The notes below the pieces were generated by a model. The model did no database searches and had not been told where the DNA came from. It saw only the letters and a list, made by a program, of their open reading frames with translations. From Oscillospiraceae bacterium (GTDB lineage: Bacteria; Bacillota_A; Clostridia; Oscillospirales; Ruminococcaceae): a DNA stretch of 13,356 nucleotides. Each line of letters starts with the position of its first letter. Within the stretch, counting starts at the first letter, position 1. Location: contig JAGAJA010000115.1 of the NCBI GenBank assembly GCA_017829075.1, positions 1-13,356 of the forward strand. Reading direction: 5' to 3'. The position numbers and the translations under genes are program-made. Positions 5,595-13,028 of this stretch are shown one piece after another.

Positions 5595-5979
5595 CAGCCC
5601 GACAGCAGTCAGGTCGTAACAATCGAATATCGCCGACACATATAACTTGCCATTTTTAGCTTAGACTTCCGTGATATCAGTTACGCATTTGCTGAAAGGC
5701 TTGTCGGCTTTAAAATCGCGTTTCAGCAGGTCGTCTGACTTTCTCGCTTCACGGTCCGCCTTCGTGTTCCCATTCGGCTTTCGGTTGGGTCTGTGCGTTA
5801 TTCCGATGGCTGTCATCACGCGGTATACCGTGGTTTCGCTTGGTATTCCGGAATCCGGAAATTTAAGGAGCAGCGCCTTATGCATTCGCTCCCTGACGTG
5901 TCACTTTCAGCGCTTTGCAGCAGAATGAAATTCTGCCTTTTGCGCCTCCATCGCAGGTTTTGAGCGCAATGAACTTCAT
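5580..5979 (-). pseudogene. IS3-family orfB transposase, broken
   Basis: From the ATG at 5979 (AGGAG a few bases upstream) the frame reads KFIALKTCDGGAKGRISFCC then KALKVTRQG and stops early. Family members continue here with a segment of about 30 residues that is missing. Homology resumes in a second frame with ALLLKFPDSGIPSETTVYRV, then HRPNRKPNG, ADREARKSDDLLKRDF and KCVTDITEV. A TAA follows at 5661-5663 where a Lys codon (AAA) would be expected, and the same frame continues beyond it with NGKLYVSAIFDCYDLTAVG. The first DDE aspartate (VTDITE) is present but the rest of the integrase core is lost near 5580. Confidence 0.85.
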
Positions 5980-5993
5980 TCGCTCCTGCTTGT

Positions 5994-6218
5994 TTACTTC
6001 CGACGGATCGCAGCGAAAAAAACTGCCGCCTCATTCAGAAAGTCTCTCTCCTCAATGTCCAGGTCGCCGTTCTTTGCCGCCTGCACCCACCCGTACAGCG
6101 TTCCGTACGGTATCTTCAGTTCTTCGCCGGCTCGCTTTACCCATATTTCCAGCGCCAGCTTTACTGACTGCTCCTTGTAGCTCCTGTCGTATTTCTTTGC
6201 TTCTGACATGTCCTTCAC
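5994..6218 (-). pseudogene. IS3-family orfA with internal deletion
   Basis: The 74-residue product starts at a GTG (6218) after AGGAGA, or at the ATG four codons later. It carries the orfA helix-turn-helix: YDRSYKEQSVKLALEI, then RAGEELKIPYGTLYGWVQAA and KNGDLD. It then jumps straight to DFLNEAAVFFAAIRRK, which is the normal extreme C-terminus of this family. The leucine-zipper/coiled-coil segment that usually lies between (about 20-30 residues) is gone. Reading frame is kept, so a short DNA-binding protein could still be made, but it would lack the multimerisation helix. Confidence 0.85.
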
Positions 6219-6419: not shown

Positions 6420-7718
6420 TTATAAATCCATCGACGTTTCATCAAGCAGGAACTGCTCGATACCTATATATTGCACACCCTTTTCATCATGCCACGGAAT
6501 GATCCTGTCCCTGACAACGACTATCTTTTTGAACGAGTCTGCCACACGGTACAGCGAGTTAGTTTCCTGCAGGCGCTTCTCTTCATCGGAAATGGAAAGC
6601 GCCGACTGCACATAATATTTCTTGCTGCCTTTACTTGCAACAAAGTCTATTTCGAGCCTGGAGCGGACGCTCTTTCCGGATTCGTCCCGGTGATTGTATT
6701 CCACAACGCCCACATCAACGTTGAAATCACGATATTGCAGCTCGTTGTAAATGATGTTCTCCATGATGTGGTTTTCCTCCTGCTGGCGGAAGTTCAGCCG
6801 TGCATTGCGAAGTCCCACATCGCTGAAATAGTATTTGAGCGGCGAGCCAATGTATTTTCTGCCCTTGACATCATAGCGCTCCGCCTTTGAAATCATGAAA
6901 GAATCAATGAAGAAATCGAGGTATCTCGCTACCGTTGCGGAATCAATATCGATCTTACGGACGCTGTGGAATGTCTTTGCAATTTTGCTCGGGTTAGTCA
7001 GCGAACCTATCGAAGATGAGATTATATTCAGCAGTTCGTCAAGTACGGATTTCTCGTGAAGTATCTTGTTCCGCTCGACAATATCGCTGATGTAGATTTT
7101 GTCGAACAGATTCTGGAGATACTGCGCTTTTTCCTCATGGGTCTTTTTCCGCATAATAAACGGCATTCCGCCATATGTGAAGTACTCCTGCCATGCGTTA
7201 TGCCTGTCACCGTCGTATGCGTTATAGAACTCGCTGAACGACAGCGGATAGACTCGTATTTCATCGCCTCTGCCACGGAATTCTGTCAGTATATCGGAGG
7301 ACAGCATTCTTGAATTACTGCCGGTCACATAAACGTCAATGTTATCGTGCTTCATAAGCCCGAGAACTACGTCAACAAAGCTGATTTTATCTTCGGCGTT
7401 TTCTATATATGGATTTTGCACCGGTACGACTTTTTGAATTTCGTCAAGGAACACATAATAATTCTTGCTGTCGTCGGAGGTTCTCTGCCTGAGGTACTCT
7501 CCCAGTTCAATTGGATTTCTGTACCGGATATTCTCGATTTCATCAAGCGCCAGTTCAACGATCTGATCGTCGCTTATGCCCTGCGATTTCAGATGATCCT
7601 TGTAAATATTGAACAGCAGGTATGATTTACCGCAGCGGCGTATTCCGGTTATTACTTTTACCATGCCGTTATCTTTTCGGCTGATAAGCTTGTCAAGGTA
7701 CTTCTTGCGTTCTATCAT
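6420..7718 (-). CDS. AAA_14 / DUF4143 ATP-binding protein
   Basis: This 432-residue protein is a typical member of the AAA_14-DUF4143 family. It has Walker A GIRRCGKS (25-32), Walker B YYVFLDE (87-93), a sensor-like TGSNSRML (132-139), and EFRGRG (146-151). The C-terminal DUF4143 part contains a PD-(D/E)XK nuclease-like core, EIDFVASKGSKKYYVQSA. The usual E-x-K is replaced by Q-S-A, so nuclease activity is unlikely. The family is widespread and multi-copy in gut Firmicutes and Bacteroidetes; its cellular role is not settled. The start follows GAGGTG. The gene has its own promoter, flanked by two direct repeats, and lies downstream of a small HTH gene on the same strand. Confidence 0.93.
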   Translation of the reverse strand: MIERKKYLDKLISRKDNGMVKVITGIRRCGKSYLLFNIYKDHLKSQGISDDQIVELALDEIENIRYRNPIELGEYLRQRTSDDSKNYYVFLDEIQKVVPVQNPYIENAEDKISFVDVVLGLMKHDNIDVYVTGSNSRMLSSDILTEFRGRGDEIRVYPLSFSEFYNAYDGDRHNAWQEYFTYGGMPFIMRKKTHEEKAQYLQNLFDKIYISDIVERNKILHEKSVLDELLNIISSSIGSLTNPSKIAKTFHSVRKIDIDSATVARYLDFFIDSFMISKAERYDVKGRKYIGSPLKYYFSDVGLRNARLNFRQQEENHIMENIIYNELQYRDFNVDVGVVEYNHRDESGKSVRSRLEIDFVASKGSKKYYVQSALSISDEEKRLQETNSLYRVADSFKKIVVVRDRIIPWHDEKGVQYIGIEQFLLDETSMDL

Positions 7719-7730
7719 CTCTTTACACCT

Positions 7731-7757
7731 CTTTCGACAAAAATGCGTATTGATACA
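7731..7757. repeat. 27-bp direct repeat, copy 1 (leader of the ATPase gene)
   Basis: Matches 7818-7844 at 24 of 27 positions, same orientation, 87 bases apart. The shared core includes CTTTCGA, AAAA and TGCGTATT. This copy lies between the -10 box and the start codon, close to the ribosome binding site. Confidence 0.75.
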
Positions 7758-7771
7758 ATTATATCGATTCT

Positions 7772-7800
7772 ATTATATCATGCCCGTGGTCAGAAGTCAA
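7772..7800 (-). promoter_or_regulatory. Sigma-A promoter of the ATPase gene
   Basis: TTGACT (7800-7795), 17 bases, TATAAT (7777-7772), with the start near 7765. It sits between the two copies of the 27-bp repeat, which suggests control by a protein bound at both. Confidence 0.75.
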
Positions 7801-7817
7801 TATACATTGATGTTTTT

Positions 7818-7844
7818 CTTTCGATAAAAGTGCGTATTTATACA
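7818..7844. repeat. 27-bp direct repeat, copy 2 (upstream of the ATPase promoter)
   Basis: Second copy of the repeat at 7731-7757 (three mismatches). It lies 18 bases upstream of the -35 box on the minus strand and after the stop of the small HTH gene. Confidence 0.75.
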
Positions 7845-7894
7845 CAAATTTCGTAAGTGACTTATTTCTTGCCGTTATCCTTGCTTTTGATATA

Positions 7895-8071
7895 TTATTC
7901 CATTCGCCGGATATATTTTGCGACACTTTCTTTAGAGACCCTCCACTGTTTCCCCACCCTGAACGTCTCGATCTCACCGCTCTGCACCAACCGCAGAGCG
8001 GTGTTTTTTCCTATGTGCAGCAGTTCCTGCAACTCCTTTAGCGTCAGTATATCTTTAGTATTATTAAGCAT
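7895..8071 (-). CDS. Small excisionase-like helix-turn-helix protein (58 residues)
   Basis: The protein is a single MerR/excisionase-type winged HTH (HTH_17): ILTLKELQELLHIGKNTALR, then FRVGKQWRVSKESVAKYIRR. The pattern of T-x-x-E-x-x-x-x-L-x-I/V-G, followed by a wing with FRxGKxWR and a closing helix, is diagnostic. AAGGAG lies 9 bases before the ATG. It is paralogous to the gene at 12846-13028 (about 24 of 52 residues identical by eye). Like that gene, it is followed on the same strand by an effector with a repeat-flanked promoter. It could be a local regulator of the ATPase or a recombination directionality factor. Confidence 0.88.
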   Translation of the reverse strand: MLNNTKDILTLKELQELLHIGKNTALRLVQSGEIETFRVGKQWRVSKESVAKYIRRME

Positions 8072-8125
8072 AGTTACACGCTCCTTTTTGGTTTATTTAA
8101 TCCCATGTTCGCCCGAAAAGCCAAT

Positions 8126-8156
8126 CCTCACAGAGGTATATTATACCGTTGTGAGG
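8126..8156. promoter_or_regulatory. Dyad symmetry between HTH gene and cassette, overlapping -10 boxes and an SD
   Basis: CCTCACA (8126-8132), GA, GGTATA (8135-8140), T, TATACC (8142-8147), GT, TGTGAGG (8150-8156): a 31-bp near-perfect dyad. The centre gives TATAAT on the minus strand (8144-8139) and TATATT on the plus strand, so both divergent promoters could share it. On the plus strand the right arm runs into GGAGG (8155-8159), the SD of the gene starting at 8167, so an RNA hairpin would hide part of it. The -35 boxes are weak. Confidence 0.6.
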
Positions 8157-8166
8157 AGGTGATCCG

Positions 8167-8354
8167 ATGAAGGAATAAGCGCACAGACGCTCGCCGCAAT
8201 AGCCGAAGCAGGTATCCTTGTGATATCAGGCATAATCGGCTTAGCTACTGAGCATCGAAAGGACGAGAAGCGTAATCAGCTTCAGCAGAAAATCGACGAC
8301 GCAGAACGTGAAATGAAACGCCTCGACAGCACGGACTTCCGGCTGAAGAAGTAG
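8167..8354 (+). pseudogene. Small membrane/coiled-coil protein, frameshifted after codon 3
   Basis: A strong SD (GGAGG) precedes ATG AAG GAA TAA, which stops after three codons. The other frame, entered by a -1 shift at GAA/ATA, is open for 59 codons to TAG at 8352. It reads ISAQTLAAIAEAGILV, a hydrophobic segment ISGIIGLAT, then a highly charged helix (EHRKDEKRNQLQQKIDDAER, EMKRLD) ending in RLKK. One transmembrane helix plus a coiled coil is a layout common among small phage and mobile-element proteins. Loss of one A from GGAAATAAG explains the break; no classical slippery site is present, so programmed frameshifting is less likely. A strong terminator follows. Confidence 0.55.
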
Positions 8355-8397
8355 TTTATTTCGGTTTATCCTGCACCCGATTTTCACAACAGAACAC

Positions 8398-8444
8398 AGC
8401 CCCGTTGTCGTGATGAAAATTCACGGTGACGGGGCTTTTGTTTT
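8398..8444 (+). terminator. Strong intrinsic terminator
   Basis: AGCCCCGT (8398-8405) pairs with ACGGGGCT (8429-8436); an inner CGTGA/TCACG stem extends it. TTTGTTTT follows (8437-8444). It ends the small gene at 8354 and lies only 43 bases before the next start, leaving little room for a separate promoter. Confidence 0.9.
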
Positions 8445-8486
8445 GCTCACAAACCGCATAACAGAGCCACACAGGAGGTAACAGAA

Positions 8487-8771
8487 ATGTTCAGCAACCC
8501 TAGATACAGCACCAGAGGAATCAGTGAAACAGTCCCGATATTAACGCAGATCATTCTCTGGAACTGCATCGACACCATGAAAATCGAAAAGGATTATCTT
8601 CAGGTTTTCAAACTCACGGCAAAGGACCATACCCAGCACGTCACTCACAGTCAGGAGGAACCTTCTTACGAACACTCGTTCGATTTCCGGACTGATGAAC
8701 CAATCACAGCGAAAATCTTCGTCATTGATGACGAAACTCACACCACCATGCTTTTGGCAGAAGAATATTGA
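8487..8771 (+). CDS. DUF960-family protein
   Basis: This 94-residue protein matches the DUF960 pattern: FSNPRYSTRGI at the start, PILTQIILWNCID, DYLQVFKL, HSQEEPSYE, and the C-terminal block KIFVIDDETHTTMLLAEEY. DUF960 proteins are small, of unknown function, and common on plasmids, phages and integrative elements of Firmicutes. AGGAGG lies at good spacing before the ATG. The stop is 13 bases from the amidoligase start, so the genes form an operon. I see no strong promoter between the terminator at 8444 and this start; expression may depend on read-through or a weak promoter. Confidence 0.88.
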   Translation: MFSNPRYSTRGISETVPILTQIILWNCIDTMKIEKDYLQVFKLTAKDHTQHVTHSQEEPSYEHSFDFRTDEPITAKIFVIDDETHTTMLLAEEY

Positions 8772-8784
8772 AGAGGAACACACA

Positions 8785-9903
8785 ATGGACAACAACGAAA
8801 ACACACGTCCCGTTTGCAGTTGCTGCGGAGCAACGATCGAAACCGATGACTATTACACTTTTGAAGGCAGCATACTCTGCGATGACTGCTACCACAGCGA
8901 ATCCGTTGTTTGCGAACACTGCGGCAACAGAATCTGGGCGGATGACAACGCAGGCACTGACAGCATGCCGCTCTGCAATTCCTGCTATGATGACTATTAC
9001 ACCACATGCGAGTGCTGTGGGCGTATTATCCACCGCGACTACGCCAATTACGACGATGAGGACGATTACGCCTACTGCGATAGGTGCTATGAGGAACGCC
9101 AGAACAGCTCCATTCACGAATACAGCTACAAGCCCGACCCTATCTTTTATGGCGACAGCAAGCGCTATTTCGGCGTGGAACTTGAAATCGACGAGGGCGG
9201 TAAGAACGGCGACAACGCTGATACGCTTCTGGGTATCGGCAACAGGATTGCGGAGCATATCTACATAAAATCTGATGGCAGCCTGTCAGACGGCATGGAG
9301 ATAGTGACCCACCCCATGTCCCTGAAATACCACAAGGAGAAAATGCCCTGGGCGGAGATAATGAAATCCGCTATCCACATGGATTACCGCAGCCATAAAA
9401 CCAGCACTTGTGGACTTCACGTCCACGTCAATAGAACAGCCTTCGGCAGAACCCGCGAAACACAGGACGAGTGCATTTCCCGGGTGCTTTATTTTGAGGA
9501 ACACCACTGGCTGGAGCTGCTGAAATTCAGCCGCAGAACCGAGTATCAAATGAACCGCTGGGCTGCGAGGTACGGCTATAAGAACAGTCCGAAAGAAATC
9601 TTAGAGGACGCTAAAAAGGGATGCAACGGGCGCTACGCTTGCGTGAACATCACAAACTACCACACTATTGAATTTCGTATGTTCCGTGGCACGCTCAAGT
9701 ACAATACGCTCATTGCAACGCTGGAGCTCGTGGACAAGGTTTGCGAACTTGCAACAGATCTGACCGACACAGAACTGAAATCCGTAAGCTGGTCTGATTT
9801 TGTATGCTCACTTGATGACAGTACTGAACCAGAACTGATAACCTATCTCAAAGAGCGCCAGCTCTACATCAACACGCCTATTACGGCAGAGGAGGACGAC
9901 TGA
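8785..9903 (+). CDS. Amidoligase (Amidoligase_2 family) with three N-terminal zinc-binding repeats
   Basis: This 372-residue protein starts with three LIM-like treble-clef repeats with CxxC pairs at 11/14-32/35, 43/46-64/67 and 75/78-98/101. The C-terminal half is an amidoligase of the glutamine-synthetase-like COOH-NH2 ligase superfamily: YFGVELEIDEGG, IKSDGSLSDGMEIVTHPMS, CGLHVHVNRTAFGR, and RYACVNITNYHTIEFRMFRG, holding the conserved Glu, His and Arg residues for ATP and metal. Such enzymes join an amine to a carboxylate using ATP; here the substrate is unknown, likely a peptide or protein. I chose the ATG at 8785 because AGAGGAA lies upstream, and an earlier in-frame ATG (8695) is inside the DUF960 gene. 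The next gene encodes a glutamine amidotransferase domain, a pairing reported for this superfamily in phages and mobile elements. Confidence 0.9.
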   Translation: MDNNENTRPVCSCCGATIETDDYYTFEGSILCDDCYHSESVVCEHCGNRIWADDNAGTDSMPLCNSCYDDYYTTCECCGRIIHRDYANYDDEDDYAYCDRCYEERQNSSIHEYSYKPDPIFYGDSKRYFGVELEIDEGGKNGDNADTLLGIGNRIAEHIYIKSDGSLSDGMEIVTHPMSLKYHKEKMPWAEIMKSAIHMDYRSHKTSTCGLHVHVNRTAFGRTRETQDECISRVLYFEEHHWLELLKFSRRTEYQMNRWAARYGYKNSPKEILEDAKKGCNGRYACVNITNYHTIEFRMFRGTLKYNTLIATLELVDKVCELATDLTDTELKSVSWSDFVCSLDDSTEPELITYLKERQLYINTPITAEEDD

Positions 9904-9904
9904 T

Positions 9905-10888
9905 ATGTGTGCAATATTTGGCTTGATAGACTACAATCACACCCTCAATGCGAAGCAGCGTGAAAAGCTGCTTCGTGTGCTTTCAGAGGAATGCGAGGAA
10001 CGCGGAACCGACGCTACCGGATACGCATTCAATCACAACGGCAAGCTGACGATATTCAAGCGTCCATTCGCCGCTCATAAAATTCACCTGCGCTTGCACG
10101 ATGATTCCAATGTAGTCATGGGACACACTCGAATGGCTACTCAGGGAAACAAGCTTGATAACCGCAATAATCACCCGTTTCCCGGAACGGTGAACGGAAT
10201 GCATTTTGCCCTGGCACATAACGGCGTACTTCACAATGATGTGAGGTTACGCAAACAGATGTCACTTCCGAATACTCCAGTCAAGACGGATAGCTACATA
10301 GCGGTTCAGCTTTTGGAGCAGCAGAAATCCCTCGACATACAGTCCATAAGCGAGATGGCTGAGCTTGTCGAGGGTTCTTTTGTGTTTACCGTGCTTGATG
10401 ACAAGAATAACATCTATTTCGTCAAGGGAGACAATCCGTTAGCGCTGTACCACTACGAAACATGCGGACTGTATGTCTACGCCAGCACGGAAGCAATCCT
10501 TGACCGTGCACTTACACGTCTCGGAATCATCAGTATTGAGCACCAGAAAATCAACACATCCTGCGGTGACATTCTGAAAATCGACAGCACGGGTGCAATG
10601 GAGCAGGGAATGTTCGACACAACCAATCTTATGATGTATGATTACCGTTACTTTCGTAGGGATTGGTGGAATGTCCCGGAATCGTACGCGAGCGAACCGC
10701 AGGATGTAAAGCAACTCAAAGACTTCGCAAGCTCCATAGGCGTGTCCCGTGAGGACATCGACCTGCTCTTAAGCTACGGCTATTTCGTGGAAGAGATAGA
10801 AGAAATGCTGTACCAGCCCGGAGTAATAGAGGAAGCCTTGTGCGAAATTCTGAACGAATGCGCATACGATTACTGCGGTGAGTTCTGA
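9905..10888 (+). CDS. Class II glutamine amidotransferase domain protein
   Basis: This 327-residue protein starts MCAIFG, so Cys2 becomes the N-terminal nucleophile of an Ntn hydrolase after Met removal. It then shows RGTDATGYAF, GHTRMATQG, NNHPFPG, LAHNGVLHND, TDSYIAVQLL and EGSFVFTVLD, the order of motifs in the glutaminase domain of GlmS, PurF and AsnB. It lacks the synthetase partner domain of those enzymes; about 80 C-terminal residues are helical and unassigned. The neighbour amidoligase may be the partner, with this protein supplying ammonia from glutamine or cleaving an amide. The start is 1 base after the amidoligase stop with GAGGAGG inside its end, so translation is probably coupled. 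Confidence 0.92.
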   Translation: MCAIFGLIDYNHTLNAKQREKLLRVLSEECEERGTDATGYAFNHNGKLTIFKRPFAAHKIHLRLHDDSNVVMGHTRMATQGNKLDNRNNHPFPGTVNGMHFALAHNGVLHNDVRLRKQMSLPNTPVKTDSYIAVQLLEQQKSLDIQSISEMAELVEGSFVFTVLDDKNNIYFVKGDNPLALYHYETCGLYVYASTEAILDRALTRLGIISIEHQKINTSCGDILKIDSTGAMEQGMFDTTNLMMYDYRYFRRDWWNVPESYASEPQDVKQLKDFASSIGVSREDIDLLLSYGYFVEEIEEMLYQPGVIEEALCEILNECAYDYCGEF

Positions 10889-10910
10889 GTGTTCGGAAAA
10901 CTCACCCACA

Positions 10911-10928
10911 TTGCGGATATATCCGGAA
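10911..10928. repeat. Palindrome upstream of the recombinase gene
   Basis: TTGCGGATATATCCGGAA has a perfect 12-bp core (CGGATATATCCG, 10914-10925) and two more matching outer pairs. It is 22 bases after the amidotransferase stop. It may be a subsite of a resolution (res) or crossover site for the adjacent serine recombinase. Confidence 0.45.
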
Positions 10929-10963
10929 AGCGCCAAACCGATATTTGCGAACGCAGAATCATG

Positions 10964-10994
10964 GTGTTTTCCGGTTTCCGCAAAAGTATACTTT
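10964..10994 (+). promoter_or_regulatory. Probable promoter of the recombinase gene with overlapping palindrome
   Basis: TATACT at 10987-10992 is a fair -10; GTGTTT 17 bases upstream is a poor -35. A perfect 12-bp palindrome, AAAGTATACTTT (10983-10994), covers the -10. A protein bound here would block transcription, as expected for an autoregulated recombinase. Confidence 0.4.
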
Positions 10995-11010
10995 ATCGAA
11001 CGGAGGTTCT

Positions 11011-11610
11011 ATGGGAAGAACATACGGTTACGCCAGGGTTTCCAGCACAGAGCAGAATCTCGACCGACAGATCGAGGCGCTCCTTGAATATGGCGTTGAG
11101 GAACGTGACATCGTTACGGACAAGCAGTCGGGCAAGGATTTTCAGCGTAAAGGCTACCTTGCTTTGAAGAACCAGATGCTCCGACCCGGCGACACGCTCG
11201 TCATCAAGGAGATGGACAGACTTGGCAGGGATTACGGCGCAATCAAGGACGAGTGGCTCGACATTCAGCGCATGGGCGTGGACATTGTGATAATCGACAC
11301 GCCCATTCTGAACACGAAAGAGAAATCCGACCTTGAAAAGAACCTGATTTGCAGCATTGTCTTTGAGCTGCTCGCCTACACCGCCGAAAAAGAACGCCGC
11401 AAAATCCGCATACGCCAATCCGAGGGAATCAGACTGGCGCTCGACAAAGGCGTAAAATTCGGCAGACCCGAAACAACGCTCCCCGACATTTACGCCGAGG
11501 TGATTGCCATATGGCAGTCCGGTAAAATTACAGCTGTGGAAGCAATGAAACGCCTGAACATGAAAAAGACCACATTCTACAAACTGGCTCGCAGGCTGAC
11601 GAACAAATGA
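11011..11610 (+). CDS. Serine recombinase of the resolvase/invertase family
   Basis: This 199-residue protein has the normal length and order of small serine recombinases. The N-terminus YGYARVSSTEQNLDRQI holds the catalytic Ser (S11), with DRLGRDY later supplying conserved Arg. A long helix (CSIVFELLAYTAEKERRKI, then RIRQSEGI) is followed by FGRPE and a C-terminal helix-turn-helix (ITAVEAMKRLNMKKTTFYKL). It resolves or inverts DNA between short dyad sites through a covalent serine link. GGAGG lies 6 bases before the ATG at 11011; an earlier in-frame ATG (10945) lacks such a site. Palindromes in the 122-base upstream region are candidate target or operator sites. It closes the plus-strand cassette and suggests it is mobile. 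Confidence 0.93.
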   Translation: MGRTYGYARVSSTEQNLDRQIEALLEYGVEERDIVTDKQSGKDFQRKGYLALKNQMLRPGDTLVIKEMDRLGRDYGAIKDEWLDIQRMGVDIVIIDTPILNTKEKSDLEKNLICSIVFELLAYTAEKERRKIRIRQSEGIRLALDKGVKFGRPETTLPDIYAEVIAIWQSGKITAVEAMKRLNMKKTTFYKLARRLTNK

Positions 11611-11615
11611 TTATC

Positions 11616-11634
11616 AGCGGTGCGAGCCGCTTTT
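11616..11634 (+). terminator. First terminator after the recombinase gene
   Basis: AGCGG (11616-11620) pairs with CCGCT (11627-11631), followed by TTTTATAT. It lies 6 bases after the stop; the stem is short. Confidence 0.5.
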
Positions 11635-11643
11635 ATATAGATC

Positions 11644-11678
11644 AACCGGTGCTTCGTATATGGAGCACCGGTTTTTTG
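11644..11678. terminator. Strong terminator shared by convergent genes
   Basis: AACCGGTGCT (11644-11653) pairs perfectly with AGCACCGGTT (11664-11673), then TTTTTT on the plus strand. It ends the plus-strand cassette and stands right at the 3' end of the minus-strand Fic gene (stop at 11679). A clean T tract exists only for the plus direction. Confidence 0.85.
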
Positions 11679-12725
11679 TTATTTTAATCTGTAATAGCAG
11701 ATATTTTTTCCGCTGCCCTCACGTTTAAGCTCGCCATCGTCGACCATTTTGCGGAGTGCGCTTTCAATTGCGCTCAGACTTAACGAGGGACACAATTCCC
11801 GGATATCCTGCTTGGTAAATCTGCCTATCTTGCTCTGTGAAGCCAGTCTGACAGTTTCCAGAGCAGTGCGCTTTATCTCAACCAGAGCAAACCGGTCCTC
11901 AAAATCCTTGTACGCCGCAAGAACAGTCCCGAGGATATATTTGATGAACGGAACAGCGTCCTCACTGCCCTCATGCCACCCCGTCTGGGATTCACTGAGC
12001 GCACTGTAATACAGATCCTTGTTTTTGGCTATTTTCGCTTCAAGCGAAATGTACCTGCCGACATAGAATCCGCACCTGTACAGCAGCAACGAAGTCAGCA
12101 GACGGCTCATTCTTCCGTTGCCGTCGTTGAACGGGTGAATGCACAGAAAATCGTGTATGAACACCGGAATTGCGATAAGCGGCTCCAGCTCCATATTACC
12201 GATGACTTTGTTGAATTCCCCGCATATTCTGTCCAGCGCTTCCGGAGTTTCATAGGGTTCAAGCGGAGTAAAAAGAATTTTGGTGTGCCCGTCGGGATAT
12301 GTTGCGGTGATGTAGTTCTGAACGCTTTTCGTTCTTCCTGCCATCGGGTTATTCATGTGGCTGTACATGATTTTGTGCAGCTGGAGAATGTAATTCTGCG
12401 TCACCGGAATTGCGTCAAAGCTCTCATGAATTATGTTGAGTGCGTCACGGTAGCCGGCTATTTCCTGCTCGTCACGATTGTGGGGAGTGGTCTTTTCCTC
12501 TACAAGCTGCCTTATTCTCGTGCTTGTCGTGACTATTCCCTCAATGGCATTTGAAGCCTCGGTGCTCTGGATTTTTGCTATCTCTACCAGCTTTTCAAGC
12601 TCCTGCGGGCGCTGTTTCAGATACAGTTCCTGCTTTCCGGCTTCCTTATATATCGCAGCGATAAGACTCAGCAGTTCAGAGTCCCATTTCTGATTCCTTA
12701 TCTGGGAGTAATTGAATTCTCGCAT
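11679..12725 (-). CDS. Fic-domain protein, likely AMP-transferase with inhibitory helix
   Basis: This 348-residue Fic protein carries the complete catalytic motif HPFNDGNGR (197-205), with H197 as base and the GNGR phosphate loop. The N-terminal inhibitory motif (S/T)xxxE(G/N) is present as SNAIEG (58-63), so it is a class II, self-inhibited Fic enzyme. The last 65 residues form a winged helix (FTKQDIRELCPSLSLSAIES, then ALRKMVDDGELKREGSGK) that probably binds DNA. Such proteins transfer AMP from ATP to Ser/Thr/Tyr hydroxyls of target proteins; the target here is unknown. AGGAGG is well placed before the ATG. The promoter lies inside a cluster of AAGGGAA repeats, so expression seems tightly controlled, perhaps by its own winged helix or by the HTH gene upstream. 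Confidence 0.95.
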   Translation of the reverse strand: MREFNYSQIRNQKWDSELLSLIAAIYKEAGKQELYLKQRPQELEKLVEIAKIQSTEASNAIEGIVTTSTRIRQLVEEKTTPHNRDEQEIAGYRDALNIIHESFDAIPVTQNYILQLHKIMYSHMNNPMAGRTKSVQNYITATYPDGHTKILFTPLEPYETPEALDRICGEFNKVIGNMELEPLIAIPVFIHDFLCIHPFNDGNGRMSRLLTSLLLYRCGFYVGRYISLEAKIAKNKDLYYSALSESQTGWHEGSEDAVPFIKYILGTVLAAYKDFEDRFALVEIKRTALETVRLASQSKIGRFTKQDIRELCPSLSLSAIESALRKMVDDGELKREGSGKNICYYRLK

Positions 12726-12845: not shown

Positions 12846-13028
12846 TTATTCCTTGCCGCTCTCCTCGCTTTTCCTGATGTACTTATTTAGTGCGGCTTCT
12901 GTTATCTTCCATCGCTTCCCTGTGCGGAATGCTTTAATCTTTTTATCTGCCACCAGCTTGTACGCTTGGTTTCTTCCTATGCGGAGCCTGTCTTGTAATT
13001 CGTCTATTGTCAGGATTTTTTCGTCCAC
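12846..13028 (-). CDS. Small excisionase-like helix-turn-helix protein (60 residues)
   Basis: This is a single HTH_17 (excisionase/MerR-like) domain: ILTIDELQDRLRIGRNQAYK, then FRTGKRWKITEAALNKYIRK, with a short charged tail. It starts at a GTG (13028) preceded by GAGGAGG with 8-base spacing. It is paralogous to the 58-residue protein at 7895-8071. Its stop lies only 6 bases from the end of the operator cluster of the Fic gene, which runs in the same direction. It may repress the Fic promoter or serve as a directionality factor for a recombinase. The pairing of small HTH and effector occurs twice in this window. Confidence 0.88.
   Translation of the reverse strand: MDEKILTIDELQDRLRIGRNQAYKLVADKKIKAFRTGKRWKITEAALNKYIRKSEESGKE

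Follow-up and report, generated by a model that had tools for sequence, protein, structure and literature searches.

A 13,356-bp stretch of Oscillospiraceae DNA (contig JAGAJA010000115.1, referred to as the window in the rest of the text) carries a gene for a zinc-repeat amidoligase and, a single base behind its stop codon, a gene for a class II glutamine amidotransferase (GAT). These two genes form an almost obligate pair among the genomes that hold them. We propose, with a probability of roughly 0.55, that they code for a two-protein glutamine-dependent enzyme amidating a carboxylate on a target that is a peptide or protein, for which a micropeptide encoded behind the GAT gene in some related cassettes would be the candidate substrate where it is present.

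The amidoligase-amidotransferase pair

The amidoligase (372 aa; 8785-9903, + strand) matches the Amidoligase_2 family (PF12224) with 31 bits against a curated cut-off of 22, as well as PHROG 16683 (E = 1.6e-100), and the GAT (327 aa; 9905-10888, + strand) matches PF13522 (E = 1.2e-13). Together with a DUF960 gene and a serine recombinase gene on the same strand, they were found where the initial annotation had placed a four-gene unit. The proteins nearest to those of the window come from Oscillospiraceae metagenomes, one truncated GAT relative being assigned to Ruminococcus sp., and the host is therefore probably a Ruminococcus-like gut bacterium.

Our main sample consisted of 295 genomes of the order of G001, the genome that is home to the window's closest relatives, with a GAT threshold of E = 1e-40 or better. 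A ligase match was obtained in 23 genomes, two of them weak or incomplete (G087, E = 3e-4; G206, in which a contig end truncates the ligase), and a GAT in 21, all of which also hold a ligase. The initial annotation had named rare adjacency of the two genes as the observation that would speak against it; adjacency instead proved nearly obligate, the ligase gene lying directly upstream at 35 of the 36 GAT places, with a single exception that begins at a contig end (G074:C11). Conversely, the GAT gene lies directly downstream at 35 of the 42 ligase places, weak matches included. The other seven comprise a GAT reduced to a fragment (G141), two contig starts (G074:C18 and G142:C21) and four partial or weak matches. 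In a sample of 398 genomes of the phylum, strong ligase matches were found in three (G001, G015 and G394) and weak partial ones in 18 others; G394, which lies outside the order of G001, also carries the pair. Among 80 viral contigs with distant ligase relatives, fetched from at least 487, the 67 with a next gene on the same strand showed a Met-Cys start of that gene in 48 cases and a GAT-like gene within the next two, judged by Cys2 or by profile, in 53. Tandem amidoligase genes precede a single GAT gene in G776:C86 (L261, L264), and on the Clostridioides difficile plasmid pCd18_2 (L008) an amidoligase relative (7722-8828) lies beside DUF1653 and nucleotidyltransferase genes.

The N-terminal part of the amidoligase contains three four-Cys units resembling LIM domains (residues 11-101; 8815-9087, + strand). 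All 12 cysteines are invariant in an alignment of 32 ligase rows, and in a second alignment of 37 rows eight are invariant and four are kept at 90% or more. The LIM match of this part reaches 22.3 bits, under the cut-off of 22.9, and the units match LIM proteins in the PDB by sequence, with a best E of 0.0023. In the ligase domain (residues 124-366; 9154-9882, + strand), E132, E134, E172, H212, H214, E296 and R298 are invariant in the 32 rows. The GAT retains its nucleophile Cys2 at 90% or more of 33 rows, two rows having other starts, and R76, N106-G107 and D129 in every row; the Cys2 nucleophile and the glutamine-binding residues place it among the class II glutamine amidotransferases, its nearest solved relatives being the glutaminase domains of GlmS and PurF. 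We take these invariant ligase residues and conserved GAT motif residues to be the catalytic ones, and they are kept across both families, so that the loss that the initial annotation had named as a second ground for refutation was not found.

The predicted structure of the ligase domain has the glutamine-synthetase fold, which, with the PF12224 score, assigns the protein to Amidoligase_2. The best fold match of this model is YbdK, a carboxylate-amine ligase, and this predicted likeness would suit an enzyme pair whose product is an amidated small molecule, either dipeptide-like or an amide compound; relatives among the glutamate-cysteine ligases make small molecules. The genes that recur beside the pair are limited to DUF960 or DUF3846, the recombinase and the micropeptide, without any additional conserved biosynthetic enzyme, and we consider a small-molecule product improbable.

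Micropeptide genes behind the pair

Reading the DNA downstream of the GAT gene in related cassettes revealed tiny hydrophobic open reading frames (ORFs) of 22-35 residues preceded by a ribosome-binding site. Type I micropeptides (MGLGTILVVIGEIIDLLEDEDDS..., MNLGTIIMAAGMILGELLDSDDEDEPCQ and relatives) combine a hydrophobic stretch and GxxxG-like spacing with an acidic end; type II micropeptides (MIPLGPIFQAVGAVVDLIIEAVENFSDS, MLQLKEIFRVVGVLVDLIIEMVESSSKKGK) resemble them in the middle and end in Ser/Lys. Across the loci that were read, 12 ORFs combining a ribosome-binding site, a hydrophobic stretch and an acidic tail were counted near the ligase and two elsewhere, the latter in a pair of near-identical loci. 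Of the 12, 10 are distinct ORFs behind the GAT gene; the others are a second start and a chance frame in L007. An acidic tail was considered as the feature that defines the micropeptide, and was rejected on account of the Ser/Lys tails of type II (L051, L057, L061, L067 and G764).

A profile built from nine peptides gave 11 hits with E = 2.4e-9 or better in the 295 genomes, and then nothing better than 1.6e-3. All 11 lie on the same strand as the GAT gene and at most 340 nt behind it; nine are the seeds and two are not (G113:C6 and C31). In the family of G113, a type I or type II micropeptide follows the GAT gene at 19 of 30 ligase loci, in nine of 16 genomes, three of these nine (G691, G722 and G723) having given no seed. 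The 11 remaining loci include one that lacks sequence behind the GAT gene, one with a broken GAT gene and one with a different hydrophobic ORF. A 15-peptide profile run against 109 genomes of the family of G001 returned two hits. The first, in G764 (L266; E = 9.3e-5), is a type II micropeptide that starts 14 nt behind the GAT stop codon; this GAT is preceded by the final codons of a ligase, a serine recombinase follows the micropeptide, and the site is at the edge of the stretch available. The second, in G841 (E = 0.004), lies inside an unrelated 239-residue frame and was discarded as a chance match. One viral contig (L130) also has a micropeptide.

The proportion of synonymous differences exceeded that of nonsynonymous ones in 33 of 34 pairs of micropeptide genes, the remaining pair giving 0.00 versus 0.02; the pairs are not independent of one another and cover type I. 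The micropeptide is thus under purifying selection. None of the eight micropeptides tried matches a model in Pfam or NCBIfam, and in the open-access literature searched, within the scope of one library, we found no description of it. At two G113 loci (L056 and L065), the DNA block shared between copies ends within the last codons of the micropeptide, so that the tails differ according to what follows. Small hydrophobic ORFs of other sequence occur at G837:C12, in the family of G001. In the window, the frame 8160-8355 (+ strand) has a hydrophobic stretch, a charged tail and a good ribosome-binding site ahead; it was rejected as a substrate gene as it contains no in-frame ATG, GTG or TTG and its best tblastn match against all loci collected here has an E of 0.57.

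Companion genes, flanking hairpins and island setting

The DUF960 protein (94 aa; 8487-8771, + strand) belongs to PF06124, which it matches with 100 bits against a cut-off of 25 (E = 1.1e-28). Its AlphaFold2 model (pLDDT 82) matches PDB 2r41, a protein of unknown function. We counted companion genes in 33 loci with room upstream, the window included and some genomes contributing several, and in 29 loci with 2.5 kb downstream. The upstream slot is occupied by DUF960 in 18 loci and by DUF3846 in seven, never by both, and neither was seen in eight. In the 295 genomes, 17 of 27 DUF960 places are directly upstream of the pair and 10 are without it, some of these at contig ends. The association of DUF960 with the pair was thus borne out as a frequent one, but not as a fixed one, since DUF3846 may take its place.

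The small serine recombinase (199 aa; 11011-11610, + strand) matches PF00239 (E = 6.4e-25) and PHROG 125, labelled DNA invertase (E = 8.5e-43), its IS607 match being below the cut-off, and we give it no single label of the two. Such a gene follows the GAT gene in 17 of the 29 loci and, in the branch G001-G003, begins at the GAT stop codon. In four of the seven close relatives compared with the window (L069, L070, L071 and L074), the DNA in common stops precisely with the GAT stop codon, at 10888, and in the other three the block is broken or cut earlier. Save for one 49-base match in L071, the recombinase lies outside the block shared with the window's relatives; unlike in the window's branch, it lies within the shared block in G234 (3993 bp) and in G001/G003. 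We therefore rejected the recombinase as an intrinsic part of the cassette for the window's branch, other copies differing in this respect. DUF960 and the recombinase are frequent but optional companions.

A terminator-like hairpin of 16 pairs with a T tail (8398-8436, + strand) lies 51 nt 5′ of the DUF960 start, and two more (11616-11631 and 11644-11673, + strand) close the unit, so that hairpins do flank the four genes as first described. The whole window contains 19 terminator-like sites versus 12.6 ± 3.5 in shuffled sequences, and those flanking the cassette are among the strongest. Similar hairpins occur at most 130 nt 5′ of the first cassette gene at 15 of 34 loci compared to 6 of 135 control genes, and the block shared by the G113 copies contains its upstream hairpin. 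Because of this recurrence and of the inclusion in the G113 block, the hairpin at 8398-8436, taken initially for a strong terminator, may be either a terminator of upstream sequence or the cassette's own 5′ attenuator.

The cassette pair is sporadic, occurring in about one genome in 13 of the order, and may be present in several copies, with six ligase places in G113 and three each in G234 and G262. A 2.53-kb block (DUF960, ligase, GAT and micropeptide) is shared at 87% identity by three G113 copies, which have nothing in common around it. In three species, the backbone of an integrative element is 96-97% alike and the cassette 91% alike, while the other genes differ. We scanned 130 of the 132 neighbours within 4 kb of the cassettes, two being left out for size, alongside 132 of 226 control proteins taken from other places in some of the same genomes. 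At E = 1e-10, the neighbours matched 293 PADLOC families versus 19 for the controls, a count of families rather than proteins in which overlapping models inflate the 293. The Pfam families of the neighbours include restriction helicases, DUF5906, Fic, AAA_14, relaxase and conjugation proteins, those of the controls being housekeeping families; Cas3-like families also occur among the neighbours. A tyrosine integrase cluster is present at 11 of 42 loci and a relaxase-like cluster at six of 42, both named from their sequences, and Pfam Relaxase was matched by two of the 130 neighbours. These scans and shared-block comparisons bear out the idea of a mobile setting, the cassette being cargo of variable, mobile, defence-rich islands in gut Clostridia. 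They do not uphold the recombinase as what moves it: the shared block ends at the GAT gene, and the three G113 copies share their 2.5 kb without a recombinase.

Such neighbours, rich in restriction, helicase, Fic, Cas3-like and other PADLOC families, invite the thought that the pair serves offence or counter-defence, amidating a host or rival protein involved, for instance, in restriction or abortive infection, and thereby protecting the element. We regard this as distinctly improbable, as neighbourhood is not function and the cassette proteins belong to no PADLOC family. The PADLOC search matched the ligase, GAT and recombinase to no known anti-phage defence system.

In the window itself, an AAA_14/DUF4143 ATPase gene adjoins the cassette (6420-7718, − strand; PADLOC PDC-S01, E = 4.3e-106), and a gene for a Fic protein faces it (11679-12725, − strand; PADLOC SoFic, E = 1.5e-38), its stop codon abutting the last terminator-like hairpin. 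Small excisionase-like helix-turn-helix genes lie one on each side of the cassette (7895-8071 and 12846-13028, both on the − strand; HTH_17, E = 2.9e-14; excise TIGR01764, E = 7.1e-11). Two overlapping short frames (5661-6218, − strand) resemble pieces of an IS3-type transposase, a label given from sequence, and a 640-residue protein (726-2648, − strand) has a sole, weak, kinase-like Pfam match (PI3_PI4_kinase, E = 0.047). A Pfam test of 10 window proteins found no integrase or relaxase, and neither Rfam families nor tRNA genes were found in the window. Direct and inverted repeats around the window cassette, sought as recombination sites, amounted to short imperfect pairs at chance level.

Proposed reaction and related systems

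Class II glutaminases release ammonia from glutamine and deliver it to the active site of a partner, and the ligands of zinc units are as a rule proteins or nucleic acid. The genes, pairing, conserved residues, fold, island context and selected micropeptide come from computation; the reaction, the substrate and the roles of the zinc units and DUF960 given next are inferred. Cys2 of the GAT would split glutamine and hand the ammonia to the neighbouring glutamine-synthetase-fold ligase, which would activate a carboxylate with ATP as a phosphate ester and add the ammonia to yield a primary amide. The three zinc units that precede the ligase domain are probably a binding site for the target or the partner, and might, as initially suggested, select the target; DUF960 and DUF3846 would be accessories able to replace each other. 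A peptide or protein is the most likely substrate, since the one other gene conserved behind the pair encodes a peptide and in view of the usual ligands of zinc units. Where present, the micropeptide, with its conserved acidic residues beside a hydrophobic stretch, would be the leading substrate candidate, making these copies similar to clusters for ribosomally synthesized and post-translationally modified peptides (RiPPs). The cassette was initially thought to form an amide or isopeptide bond; since the partner is a glutamine amidotransferase, a primary amide made from ammonia is expected rather than an isopeptide, and only the first part of that proposal is retained.

Several observations weigh against this peptide-amidating reading. 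The window has no micropeptide, a search made in three ways giving no hit, and in the family of G001 the 15 ligase loci also have none, three of which lack the GAT gene or the sequence behind it; no substrate gene is thus in sight for the window. Type II micropeptides end in Lys/Ser rather than Asp/Glu, so that a simple rule by which an acidic tail is amidated fails. A C. difficile plasmid ligase, aligned over 69% of the query at 38% identity, has no GAT gene nearby, implying that relatives can work otherwise. Finally, the ligase, GAT and recombinase match no PADLOC model, and DUF960 shows only an E of 0.021 to KwaA. Within the wider system, the micropeptide is a component confined to certain clades, and it does not belong to this window. 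A precursor peptide gene is absent from the window and present in other cassettes of this kind, and for lack of it we do not file the window as a RiPP cluster.

A Pup-type tag is a small protein ending in Gly-Gly-Glu/Gln. None of the micropeptides identified has such an end, and without a Pup-like C-terminus they set the cassette apart from PafA/Dop and tagging for the proteasome; PafA, unlike the cassette ligase, is also not known to have a GAT partner. MurT-GatD resembles the cassette in that an ATP-dependent ligase and a partner glutamine amidotransferase together amidate the carboxylates of peptidoglycan. It belongs to different families, with a Mur-ligase fold and a class I glutaminase.

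The MurT-GatD precedent, together with the mobile and prophage context, lends some weight to a pair that modifies the cell surface, amidating carboxylates of peptidoglycan, teichoic or other acidic polymers, for instance to exclude competing phages or elements. A surface role has been put forward for the amidoligases of phiEco32 and of Clostridium prophages (PMC10580990, PMC11318856), and the phage papers already contain both the amidoligase-GAT pairing and the suggestion of a surface change against superinfection (PMC10580990, PMC3890496, PMC11318856), the latter proposal being credited there to Iyer 2009 (PMC10580990, PMC11318856). No obvious export or membrane signal was seen on the cassette proteins by inspection, no dedicated tool being used, and the micropeptide, where present, is a closer substrate; we therefore hold a surface target to be rather doubtful.

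Peptide amidation by the pair would be related in chemistry to that of the nitrilobacillin RiPP enzymes. These are related to glutamine amidotransferases and convert a peptide carboxylate to a nitrogen group, a single asparagine-synthetase-like protein placing the nitrogen on the RiPP C-terminus, whereas the cassette has a glutamine-synthetase-fold ligase and a separate GAT (PMC13060819). Phage pairs such as gp105-gp106 of Mycobacterium phage Marvin, ORF23/ORF25 of Pseudomonas phage UFV-P2 and those of OM43 phages likewise have an Amidoligase_2 protein next to or near a class II GAT. They differ in being sited in phage genomes; the Marvin ligase is 29% identical over 63% of the window ligase, and no DUF960 or micropeptide was seen in Marvin; UFV-P2 has an HNH gene between the two and a separate ATP-grasp gene (PMC3890496). 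The pairing in this conserved enzyme cassette is thus known from phages, and its arrangement with a micropeptide partner in part of its range is new.

More tentatively, the cassette may belong to a mobile RiPP-like system in which the ligase and a separate class II glutaminase amidate a co-encoded, membrane-active-looking micropeptide, and which is traded among gut Clostridia as defence-island cargo; the window would then hold the enzyme half, its substrate lying elsewhere or having been lost. If so, both the chemistry and the peptide family would be without a described member. Amidoligase-GAT pairs of phages and plasmids have long been on record without a known substrate, their role being guessed as surface change or peptide tagging, and the adjacent, selected micropeptide provides a concrete substrate candidate for them. 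Should it not be the substrate, it would remain a conserved partner of the two enzymes that lacks annotation; should it be, ribosomal peptides would be amidated here in a new way, and the micropeptides would form a new class of small peptides of gut bacteria.

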